Positions 50,801 to 53,755 of a stretch of 64,000 bases of DNA are shown here, piece after piece. The stretch comes from Mesostigma viride (lineage: Eukaryota > Streptophyta > Mesostigmatophyceae > Mesostigmatales > Mesostigmataceae): NCBI GenBank assembly GCA_009746045.1, contig RPFO01000645.1, positions 1,195,193 to 1,259,192 on the forward strand, read 5' to 3'. A model generated the notes under the pieces. That model saw only the letters and a program-made list of their open reading frames with translations, did not search any database and was not told the origin of the DNA. Each line of letters opens with the position of its first letter. Positions within the stretch are counted from its first letter, which is position 1. Position numbers and translations under genes: made by a program.

Positions 50801-53755
50801 TTACTCTGCTGGGACAACCCAGCTGACTGGGACAAACCAGGGTCCACAGCTTGCCGCACATGCATGGCCGTGCTACTTGGCATGTGACAGCCGCTAGCGT
50901 CGTGCCATCGTGGTGGTCTCTGTGTCGTCCCCCATGCCCGACACTTGCTGTAAACAACGCTAGATGATCCGACCAGACTGGAAATGAGAAGAGATTACCA
51001 AATCCTGTGTGTTTCGCAGCCCCCCTAGCCCACATCTCTCACCAAATCGCTCGGTACAGGCCAGGCTACATGACCTGGCACATCTGCAGTGTGACAGTCC
51101 CTCTCACCTTGCCACTGTACCACTTGACGCGATCTACTCCATATAGCCTCACCGCGCGCACCTTGAGCGAGATGCCCACGCGCTTGCCCCCATCCCACCC
51201 AGCACCGCCCGCTCCCATCTCACCGCGCGCACCCCTCACCTTGCGCATCTTGAGCGTGATGCCTGACGGCATGGCCCCCTCACCTTGCGCATCTTGAGCG
51301 TGATGCCTGACGGCATGGCCCCCTCACCTTGCGCATCTTGAGCGTGATGCCTGACGGCATTGCCCCCTCACCTTGCGCATCTTGAGCGTGATGCCTGACG
51401 GCATTGCCCCCTCACCTTGCGCATCTTGAGCGTGATGCCTGACGGAATTGCCCCCTCACCTTGCGCATCTTGAGCGTGATGCCTGACGGCATTGCCCCCT
51501 CACCTTGCGCATCTTGAGCGTGATGCCTGACGGCATTGCCCCCTCACCTTGCGCATCTTGAGCGTGATGCCTGACGGCATTGCCCCCTCACCTTGCGCAT
51601 CTTGAGCGTGATGCCTGACGGCATGGCCCCCTCACCTTGCGCATCTTGAGCGTGATGCCTGACGGCATGGCCCCCTCACCTTGCGCATCTTGAGCGTGAT
51701 GCCTGACGGCATTGCCCCCTCACCTTGCGCATCTTGAGCGTGATGCCTGACGGCATTGCCCCCTCACCTTGCGCATCTTGAGCGTGATGCCTGACGGCAT
51801 TGCCCCCTCACCTTGCGCATCTTGAGCGTGATGCCTGACGGCATGGCCCCCTCACCTTGCGCATCTTGAGCGTGATGCCTGACGGCATGGCCCCCTCACC
51901 TTGCGCATCTTGAGCGTGATGCCTGACGGCATTGCCCCCTCACCTTGCGCATCTTGAGCGTGATGCCTGACGGCATTGCCCCCTCACCTTGCGCATCTTG
52001 AGCGTGATGCCTGACGGAATTGCCCCCTCACCTTGCGCATCTTGAGCGTGATGCCTGACGGAATTGCCCCCTCACCTTGCGCATCTTGAGCGTGATGCCT
52101 GACGGCATGGCCCCCTCACCTTGCGCATCTTGAGCGTGATGCCTGACGGCATGGCCCCCTCACCTTGCGCATCTTGAGCGTGATGCCTGACGGCATGGCC
52201 CCCTCACCTTGCGCATCTTGAGCGTGATGCCTGACGGCATGGCCCCCTTGTCGCGCAGGAACTGGGTGGTGTGGAACCGCGTGCCGGCCTCCAGCAGGAG
52301 AAGCACCTTCTCGCTCTCGCCACCTTGCGCCTCCCCCGAGCTGCGGGACAGCTTGAGCAGGTAAGTCTTTTGAAGGGAGAGAGAAGAGTAGTGAGGGGCG
52401 GTGGTGTGAGATTGGGGGGGGGGGGAGAAGAGGGAGAGAGAACGGTCAGCGGGACGGAGGGGTAGACTGGGGGGGGAGTGCGGCGGGGGGAGGAACGGGC
52501 AGGCCAGGGGGAGTACAGTTGCATGCGCGTTTGGTTCCGTGTTGCATGCGCGTTTGGTTCCGTGTTGCATGCGTGTTTGGTTCCGTGTTGCATGCGTGTT
52601 TGGTTCCGTGTTGCATGCGCGTTTGGTTCAGTCCAATATGAACACGTGGGCGGGGCTTTTGAAGGTGAAGGAGCTTGAAGAGAAACTAAGAAACGGACCG
52701 CGTGATTCAGATATTTCCTCTGTTTGCGTCCCCGCCCAGCGCAAGTGGGTTTCCTGCTGCTCCCCTTGTGCAAGTCTCCTGTCAGCTGCCACACCTCAAA
52801 CGGCCAGGCGATAAATAGGTCCATCTGCCGGCACCATGGACATGCAGCTGGGGAACAGAAGCCACTCACACATACCCTGCATGCACTCCTCGGTGAACCC
52901 ACGCAGATGGTACTAGGAAGTACGAAGATGTATTACGTCACAATGCCCTCCGCACCACACCATCTACCGGATGGAGGGCTGCTCATTCATGATGAGATTA
53001 CGGAAGTAGCATAAATAGCATATCTAGTAGCATATCTAGTAGCATATCTAGCAGCATATCTAGTAGCATATCTAGTTGAATCTACACACATGCTATGACT
53101 GCAACTTGATCACTTGCGCGCCCAAGTCCGCGGCTCCTGTGGTGAGGTATTCTCAAACAGAGATACACCACCACTGCTACACCACGGCAACTTCCCACAG
53201 TGCGACTTCCCCGTCCAACAAGCTCCTTCGTCCCAGGCGGCTACCATACATCGCTTCCTTCAAGCATGCACCACCCCTGACAGCAGCCAGATCTCAGGCC
53301 TCGTGTGCACCAAGGAGCATGCACAGCTGCCGCATCTGCGGTTGAGTGCAGATAAGCCCTGGTCAACCAACAAGACGCACGCGGGAAAGCCAGCCTCGAA
53401 ATAGGATCTTTGCTTAACTGATGAGCAGATGGTAAGTATATGCAGGAAGTACACAACACGAGCCAAAACAGTAAGTATCCACGGCCCTTCCTGCACATCG
53501 GGCGGTTTCCCCTCCGAATTACACAGCAGCTACGGACATGCCACTGGAAACTGACAAAAACATCCACCAAACAGACTGCTCAGGTGGGGGGCTGGCGCGT
53601 TCTACCAAACAATCCGGGCCATCCATGGCACTGATGTATACCTTTGCATTGATGTCGTAGATGTTCGCCACGCGCATCCCAATAAGCTTTTGCATCGACT
53701 GCAGGCATGCCACCTCCGCGGCGATATCCGCCGCGGTCATCCGCGTCTTCACCAT
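35884..53755 (-). CDS. NEMF: NEMF/Rqc2 ribosome-quality-control factor, 15 exons, about 1361 aa
   Basis: Exons (minus): 53755-53642, 52366-52208, 50147-50097, 48926-48604, 48048-47952, 47266-46844, 45767-45703, 44946-44787, 43933-43865, 43180-42966, 42135-42043, 41432-41327, 39991-39882, 38896-37584, 36670-35884. All are GT-AG. Phases agree everywhere except 14 to 15. NFACT-N motifs: [37 protein letters not shown] (the DR pair needed for CAT-tailing in yeast Rqc2, here about 107-108). A coiled-coil middle is followed by NFACT-R (WFEKFHW then [45 protein letters not shown]). A zinc knuckle [14 protein letters not shown] precedes the C-terminal NFACT-C block ([19 protein letters not shown]). 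The protein binds 60S subunits with stalled nascent chains and recruits Listerin. It is longer than human NEMF (1076 aa) because exon 14 adds a low-complexity acidic/Gly/Ser insert. Exon 14 appears to lack one G in the 8-base run at 37653-37660. The introns are full of minisatellites. Confidence 0.93.
36900..37070. repeat. TACTA-rich short repeats in NEMF intron 14
   Basis: Imperfect ACTAATATGTAT and CATACTACTATGTATATA words recur. Two copies of AACAGGTACTAC (36900 and 37014) flank the stretch. No further structure. Confidence 0.5.
39269..39575. repeat. (TAC)n trinucleotide repeat in NEMF intron 13
   Basis: About 100 triplets, mostly TAC/CTA, with short CTC and CTG blocks. It yields poly-Leu, poly-Ser and poly-Val frames that are not genes. 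Confidence 0.97.
40250..40345. repeat. short GGCTGTGGATACTATACT repeats in NEMF intron 12
   Basis: Four to five imperfect copies of a unit of about 21 bp containing ACTGGCTGTGGATACT or ACTGGCTGTAGATACT. Confidence 0.75.
41630..42050 (-). repeat. 28-bp array of exon-11 end plus 5' splice site (NEMF intron 11)
   Basis: On the transcript strand exon 11 ends GGCAAAGGAGACGT|GTGAGTGG. The intron then continues ATGCTT and repeats GGCAAGGGAGACGT|GTGAGTGG about 15 times with period 28. Each copy keeps the exon-like bases and a full GTGAGT donor. Variation is mostly in the ACACGT, ACATGT or CCATGC triplets on plus. Confidence 0.92.
43293..43701. repeat. 27-bp minisatellite in NEMF intron 9
   Basis: About 15 copies of GTGGTTTCCATGTGATAAGA followed by TAGCCAG, with GTGTTAAG as the main variant. 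It does not resemble either neighbouring exon. Confidence 0.97.
44228..44405. repeat. 23-bp minisatellite in NEMF intron 8
   Basis: Seven to eight copies of a unit AGCAGGATATGCATACACAC plus AGA. Nearly perfect, so recent. Confidence 0.97.
46450..46850 (-). repeat. three copies of exon-6 end plus 5' splice site (NEMF intron 6)
   Basis: Exon 6 ends AAAGTGGACAAGATTCGGGC then CGACCAG|GTGAGGGGCCGG. A copy at about 46735-46795 reads CTCTCCAAAGTGGACCTG then a 13-bp filler and GCCGACCAG|GTGAGGGGCCGG. A third at about 46455-46510 reads AACATGGACAAGGTCCACAC then CGACCAG|GTGAGG. Copies 2 and 3 also share GAAGCAATC upstream. Confidence 0.85.
47790..47885. repeat. short direct duplication in NEMF intron 5
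   Basis: TCAGTAGTCCGCCACGATAC then TCCT occurs twice about 49 bp apart (from about 47801 and 47850), each preceded by a CATA...GCC sequence. Confidence 0.8.
48062..48215. repeat. about 48-bp tandem repeat in NEMF intron 4
   Basis: Three to four copies of a unit with AGCCGAGGCAGCACACCCGA and GAGGCGTCACGGGGGTG. It lies just upstream of the exon-5 acceptor in transcript order. Confidence 0.85.
49310..49640. repeat. 52-bp minisatellite in NEMF intron 3
   Basis: Six copies of a unit including GGCACGTCTCCTATTTGAGT and ACGCCTAAAACAGAATAGAA. Confidence 0.96.
50440..50790. repeat. 23-bp minisatellite in NEMF intron 2
   Basis: About 15 copies of AAGCAAGGACCTTTGTAACC plus GAG, with TGCAACCCAG and TGGAACCGAG variants. 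Confidence 0.96.
51100..52245 (-). repeat. 44-bp array of exon-2 end plus 5' splice site (NEMF intron 2)
   Basis: On the transcript strand exon 2 ends GCATCACGCTCAAGATGCGC then AAG|GTGAGGGGG. The intron repeats CCATGCCGTCAGGCATCACG, CTCAAGATGCGCAAG and GTGAGGGGG about 23 times, period 44, from 52207 to about 51236. Subtypes differ at CATGGC, CATTGC or AATTGC (plus strand). Diverged outliers lie downstream, for example GCATCTCGCTCAAGGTGCGC then GCGGTGAGG near 51146-51172. Every unit keeps an AAG|GTGAGG donor. Confidence 0.95.
52515..52636. repeat. 23-bp minisatellite in NEMF intron 1
   Basis: Five copies of TGCATGCGCGTTTGGTTCCG plus TGT, with a CGTG variant. Confidence 0.95.
53003..53080. repeat. 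12-bp AGCATATCTAGT repeat in NEMF intron 1
   Basis: About six copies of TAGTAGCATATC (AGCATATCTAGT register), with CAGCATATC and AAATAGCATATC variants. Confidence 0.9.

Follow-up and report, generated by a model that had tools for sequence, protein, structure and literature searches.

Tandem copies of a splice junction in intron 2 of NEMF, and exon-end copies in other conserved genes, of the alga Mesostigma viride

Tandem repeats that lie across exon-intron borders have been described in the human genome. A variable number of tandem repeats (VNTR) with a 31-bp unit occupies the exon 13-intron 13 border of CBS (PMC1395315), and its formal name, c.1444_1467+7(16_21), specifies 24 exon and 7 intron nucleotides (nt) per unit and 16-21 copies (PMC2630376). 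In human segmental duplications, minisatellites (~30-bp units, four copies) that sit at exon-intron borders alter introns (PMC2812944), and intron gain by tandem duplication is described for ATP2A1, for fission-yeast 24-bp AGGT repeats and for potato RdRp (PMC4974935). The locus compared with them here is a 64,000-nt stretch of the streptophyte alga Mesostigma viride (assembly GCA_009746045.1, contig RPFO01000645.1, positions 1,195,193 to 1,259,192; below, the window, numbered from its first letter), in which the NEMF gene carries, in its second intron, an array whose 44-bp unit is made of the end of exon 2 and its 5' splice site. An earlier note on this DNA, made from the sequence alone, took such a repeat not to be a described class; the human CBS VNTR and the border repeats of segmental duplications say otherwise.

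NEMF (also RQC2) is a ribosome-rescue protein. Its gene is encoded on the minus strand of the window, from 53755 downward. The identification, already proposed in the earlier note, holds: in a homology search the first three exons (residues 3-108) match NEMF structures with an E value of 9e-19, and the exon-joined translation is 100% identical to the EukProt gene model P0008 (jgi/Mesvir1) over 718/718 residues. The elements of intron 2 and its flanks are the following (TRF, Tandem Repeats Finder; PWM, position weight matrix; a slash marks a splice boundary).

52208-52366, minus strand: NEMF exon 2, whose 3' end is what the array repeats, placed by NEMF homology, by its phase-0 join K/H to exon 3 and by the identical junction in P0008.
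52206-52207, minus strand: predicted authentic 5' splice site (donor 1), AAG/GTGAGG, GT starting at 52207; the sole donor of the 23 yielding the conserved protein.
51232-52248, minus strand: array of 44 bp x 23, the last ~35-41 nt of exon 2 plus the 5' splice site, copy 1 being the real exon end (TRF, script).
51238-52163, minus strand: 22 decoy donors, the identical 9-mer AAG/GTGAGG every 44 bp, GT starting at 52163 through 51239 (script, PWM).
52160-52162, minus strand: stop codon of unit 2, a TGA that lies in the reading frame of exon 2 (translation).
51107-51231, minus strand: degenerate tail of diverged unit-like copies, with donor-like sites at 51152 and 51107 (sequence, PWM scan).
50423-50789, minus strand: array of 23 bp x 16, also in intron 2, non-exonic in origin (TRF).
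50097-50147, minus strand: NEMF exon 3, with an ordinary acceptor, GTGCAG, outside the array (sequence, translation).

TRF delimits the array at 51232-52248 with period 44, 23.1 copies and 98% matches, and a script counts 23 units, the number of exon-end and splice-site copies that had been estimated before. A 36-nt core (28 exon nt plus GTGAGGGG) is identical in 23/23 units at an unvarying spacing of 44 bp. Only 2 of the remaining 8 positions vary (42/44 are identical across units), and the three unit types that they define follow one another as aaaabbccaacccaacccbccaa, with the five-unit block aaccc twice in succession. The resemblance of intron 2 to the exon-2 end is far above chance (it scores 84, while the best of 60 shuffles reached 26), and a DNA search of the 440-Mb assembly, which disregards simple repeats and very common words, places the array at one site. 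Where the 44-bp unit is taken to start is arbitrary; the TRF boundaries include 41 exon nt, and AGGGG is present at both array edges, near exon position -41 and at intron position +4. The description of intron 2 as being an array needs trimming: the 44-bp unit of exon end and donor is as stated, but the array makes up only 976/2060 nt of the intron.

A donor PWM trained on this genome scores each of the 23 AAG/GTGAGG sites at 7.1, a value unmatched by any other GT in intron 2, and each copy is thus as plausible a donor as had been claimed. A stronger sequence as the source of any first-donor advantage is excluded within the array, all 23 cores being identical. Translation of all 23 donor choices confirms that only the first gives full-length protein. 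Only with donor 1 do exons 2 and 3 read through in frame, giving the conserved sequence MRK/HIRTKR; donors 3-23 (21/22 of the decoys) include the TGA of unit 2, met at 52162-52160 as the earlier reading of the second unit had it; and the donor 2 product is frameshifted, with a stop within exon 3. The annotated model P0008 follows donor 1, which we infer to be the authentic 5' splice site.

The intron 2 array, the only one described in the earlier note, is not a single case: a second array opens intron 11 of NEMF, introns 6 and 10 of the gene hold looser copies, and other genes have them too.

41626-42056, minus strand: second junction array, 28 bp x 15.4, the end of exon 11 (42043-42135) plus its donor (GT at 42042), opening intron 11 (TRF, sequence, PWM).
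46462-46843, minus strand: exon-6 end and donor (46843) with two spaced, diverged copies in intron 6 (donors 46736 and 46462; shuffle test, PWM).
42913-42966, minus strand: 27-bp x 2 repeat starting at the donor of intron 10 (TRF, shuffle test).

Several units of the intron 11 array have a GTGAGT donor, others GGGAGT. When the last 30 exon nt and first 12 intron nt at each junction are compared with the rest of the intron, 4/13 NEMF introns (2, 6, 10 and 11) contain copies of the 5' junction scoring above all 60 shuffles; copies of the 3' junction do so in 1/13 (intron 13). The 17 TRF arrays in NEMF (overlapping rows merged) cover 3 donors against 2.66 expected, and no acceptor against 2.77 (P = 0.015 for zero, under a uniform-placement null that ignores coding constraint). 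Intron 3 holds a 52-bp x 6 array (window 49321-49636) with a TTTTAG/G motif in each unit; as decoy acceptors these were rejected, since by acceptor PWM the real site scores 6.0 and all six of these sites fall below 0.

For other genes, models came from a small hidden Markov model (HMM) gene finder whose training started from NEMF and was extended by iteration to further sequence, including the first ten kinesin loci. Eighteen of ~38 kinesin clusters were sampled, the choice falling on those with several exon hits in a span of a few kb. They gave 89 predicted introns, 70 of which remained after filtering (intron at least 150 nt, both exons at least 40 nt, away from the locus end); with the 13 of NEMF they make up 83. 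Copies of the exon end lie downstream, within 500 nt, in 23/83 introns, 15 of them reaching 6 nt or more past the junction in both directions, and copies of the exon start lie upstream in 9/83, 4 of them spanning it (in the first ten kinesin loci, 11/47 and 3/47). Windows interior to the same introns have copies in 116/494 cases with a downstream target and in 112/436 with an upstream target. Donors therefore do not differ from intron interiors (p 0.41), whereas acceptors have fewer copies (p 0.003, a value that counts windows from the same intron as independent, which they are not), and introns with donor-only copies outnumber those with acceptor-only copies by 18 to 4 (paired p 0.004).

The pattern recurs in a second family, PF00118, of which two of about a dozen CCT/Cpn60 clusters were sampled: donor-side copies in 5/11 introns and acceptor-side in 1/11. 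One of these loci has an array that closely parallels that of NEMF intron 2.

L043:3883-4369, CCT locus: junction array, 48 bp x 10.1, exon end plus donor, opening the intron.

For NEMF, 18 kinesin and 2 CCT loci together, exon-end copies are found downstream in 28/94 introns and exon-start copies upstream in 10/94, with discordant introns dividing 23 donor-only to 5 acceptor-only (paired p 0.0009). In a set of 93 introns, filtered slightly differently from the 94, TRF arrays of period at least 15 cover 1/93 acceptors against 10.9 expected (P 0.0005, uniform placement, coding constraint again ignored). That sole array is a 59-bp x 2.4 repeat of pyrimidine tract, AG and exon start in one of the sampled loci (L036:1494-1635; the gene is on the minus strand and the junction at 3787 of the reversed locus).

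Of the 23 donor-side copies in NEMF and the kinesins, 17 keep their GT, and in 15/17 of these the copied donor scores at least as high on the PWM as the real one. An in-frame, stop-free insert would come from 0/17 (for gapped alignments the better-scoring junction placement was taken). Offsets range over 27-299 nt and identities over 0.85-1.00, and copies of different ages therefore seem to coexist. Two other origins were discarded. Whole-exon duplication is at odds with the rarity of intronic copies of 30-72-nt windows from inside exons (5/76 and 2/77) and with the copied exon part stopping within ~50 nt of the junction. Insertion of spliced cDNA is at odds with the spacing of exon-end and exon-start copies: five introns contain both kinds, and in these the two are separated by about 65 nt or more.

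The account that we think probable, if well short of certain, is that the NEMF array is a minisatellite that arose by local duplication over the exon-2/intron-2 junction and was kept since the first donor wins, copies of acceptors being selected against. The sampled introns of M. viride are dense in local direct duplications. In such introns a 5' junction would be caught by chance, at about the rate of the intron interior; in NEMF the event would have been a local tandem duplication between the AGGGG runs at about -41 and +4, followed by expansion, and the shared AGGGG at the array edges suggests slippage or unequal exchange at microhomology. After duplication on the 5' junction the exon end and its donor would still stand intact on the upstream side and, if the first donor is used, the extra sequence would simply be intron. 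Donor-side copies would persist through the use of the 5'-most donor, the first to be transcribed, everything downstream of it, decoys included, leaving as intron; use of a wrong donor would bring a frameshift or stop and, presumably, mRNA decay. Copies of a 3' junction, in contrast, would sit upstream of the real acceptor, and, if the first usable AG is taken, the mRNA would be spoiled. The under-representation of acceptor copies would then have its cause in the same first-come logic, which makes them harmful. We infer the first-come rule from selection; the donor/acceptor asymmetry fits both of its halves. A larger claim can be made, that in many conserved genes between a fifth and a third of the introns have mostly intact exon-end/donor copies just downstream of the real junction, with 3' copies purged, that junction duplication makes introns grow at their 5' ends, and that the spliceosome takes the first among identical donors. 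That claim we advance tentatively, rating it somewhat below an even chance.

Several observations weigh against this account, or narrow it. The first 200 kb of the same contig (C1846:1-200000) has donor copies in 2/83 introns and acceptor copies in 0/83, with 106/574 interior windows (3/104 and 0/104 under looser filters), and restricting the comparison to exon scores of at least 15 leaves the difference unchanged (1/35 introns against 12/23 in kinesins). This region was given little weight as a control, since its predicted genes include retroelement-like reading frames: several gene models look retroelement-like by eye, and, when the 19 largest exons (16 of them from this region) were compared with Pfam, 3 had a family match. 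Five apparently real genes of this region have donor copies in 1/41 introns, acceptor copies in 0/41 and copies in 43/283 interior windows; one was identified by search as a G-patch gene, and the other four we take to be TMEM14-like, UMPS, TYW-like and TM9SF. Their donor rate is below the 23/83 of NEMF and kinesins (p 0.0005), and the rate of junction copying is therefore uneven between genes. Including these five genes, the totals are donors 29/135 and acceptors 10/135. The 15 other predicted introns of the window have 1 donor and 0 acceptor copies. The HMM models were checked by Pfam exon hits in 10/18 kinesin loci, all of them in the training set, and in the two CCT loci (in the ten, an exon lies over 36/36 PF00225 hits, one only partially, in L026, with most ends within ~30 nt). 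The complete lack of open in-frame copies (0/17) is partly forced, because such a copy would be read as exon. TRF arrays of period at least 15 cover 6/93 donors, below the 10.8 expected under uniform placement. In a finer paired test (24-nt windows, 250-nt target, 67 introns) acceptors, at 11/67, do not differ significantly from interior zones at 10-19/67 (p 0.13-1.0). The same test has a slight peak of copies at the donor side (18/67 at -12 against 8-12/67 from +24 to +120), which could mean a mild hot spot.

A hot spot is the alternative that survives best: the 5' splice junction, through its G-rich donor context or a break linked to transcription or splicing, would itself seed duplications. 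The peak at -12 and the G-rich match shared by the NEMF array edges speak for it. Against this, the donor rate over the 83 introns does not differ significantly from that of the interior, the donor junction in the finer test (22/67) is not significantly above any of five interior zones (13-19/67; p 0.06 to 0.70), and TRF arrays cover fewer donors than placement at random would give, under a null that, as before, ignores coding constraint. We regard a hot spot as doubtful.

The array might also be functional: the 22 decoys might titrate U1, or might yield unproductive, decay-prone isoforms that tune the level of NEMF. In favour of this, the 23 donors are identical and by PWM the strongest in intron 2, with a stop or frameshift in every decoy product. 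Comparable structures are found, however, in the unrelated kinesin and CCT genes, and copies 85-100% identical to their source resemble neutral remnants of different ages; we consider a function improbable.

That PacBio assembly and Illumina polishing inflated or homogenised a short array is suggested by the identity of 42/44 unit positions, as polishing with short reads over repeats can presumably homogenise units. An artefact appears unlikely nevertheless, and we give it very little credence: three unit types follow one another in a non-uniform order, one genomic place was found for the array, diverged copies make up its tail and comparable arrays exist elsewhere. The genome was sequenced with PacBio to 113x with a read N50 of 11.2 kb (PMC6947507), and the 1-kb array is far shorter than that. 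The weakest alternative, creation of the intron by duplicating an AGGT-bearing exon piece (the Rogers model), can draw on the AAG/GT and exon sequence in the unit, but is highly improbable, as such a duplication would not supply the intronic GTGAGGGG and the real acceptor (50148-50149) lies outside the array and the duplicated exon segment, ~1.1 kb past it, in unit-free sequence. Nor does the array behave as an introner-like or mobile intron element, one genomic place having been found for it in a search that skips common words and simple repeats.

Junction duplication with retention of the first donor would offer a plain route for the lengthening of introns and for their uptake of exon-like fragments. 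Artificial duplications have served to study how one donor is chosen over identical neighbouring ones. Natural identical donors, up to 23 in succession in a conserved gene, make that choice testable, and the donor/acceptor asymmetry is a direct, testable prediction; Iso-Seq data are described for M. viride (PMC6947507). If the larger claim above is true, the genome of this alga is a large natural experiment on first-donor use.

Other features of the window are recorded here for completeness. P0008 lacks NFACT-C; in window 35887-36669 (minus strand), however, a different frame of that region codes for NFACT-C (E 6.6e-28) and a CCHC knuckle, and the published NEMF model therefore seems to finish in the wrong frame, likely an annotation error rather than a broken gene. 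An 11-kb satellite occupies 6-11266 (281 copies of a 40-bp unit by TRF), and a 7-bp x 94 GGGCGGA array (25940-26598) lies within the open frame of a predicted minus-strand exon (25377-26714). At 63788-63963 a 65-bp repeat, possibly another junction repeat, overlaps the end of a putative exon together with its donor (GTACGA; intron 63144-63920) in a predicted minus-strand gene.

Among known systems the human CBS VNTR is the nearest. In both, the unit holds an exon end and the first intron nucleotides with the 5' splice site, and in NEMF near-identical units (23, with 98% matches) run head to tail from the real exon end; on both features the NEMF array reads as a junction-spanning minisatellite of the CBS VNTR kind, judged from the genomic sequence of one assembly. 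The CBS VNTR has a 31-bp unit and is polymorphic, whereas the NEMF unit is 44 bp, is known from one assembly and has counterpart arrays in several genes of the same genome. The repeated donors of the CBS VNTR can be used alternatively. Lievers and colleagues (2001), to go by their title, are said to have linked that VNTR to enzyme activity. Zhuo et al. (2007), again by title, reportedly dealt with human introns originating from tandem arrays. With the Rogers-model cases NEMF shares tandem exon copies containing AG/GT that end up intronic, but there duplication provides the splice sites of a new intron, while in NEMF an existing intron appears to have been lengthened at its 5' end, keeping its own acceptor. 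The repeats of human segmental duplications belong to recent primate paralogs whose transcripts are often changed (PMC2812944); in M. viride the upstream donor of conserved genes appears to be kept. Among the matches listed in the open-access literature, as titles and the starts of abstracts, none is a precedent for junction copies across the genes of one alga. What is new here is that splice-junction repeats recur across several conserved genes of a single alga.

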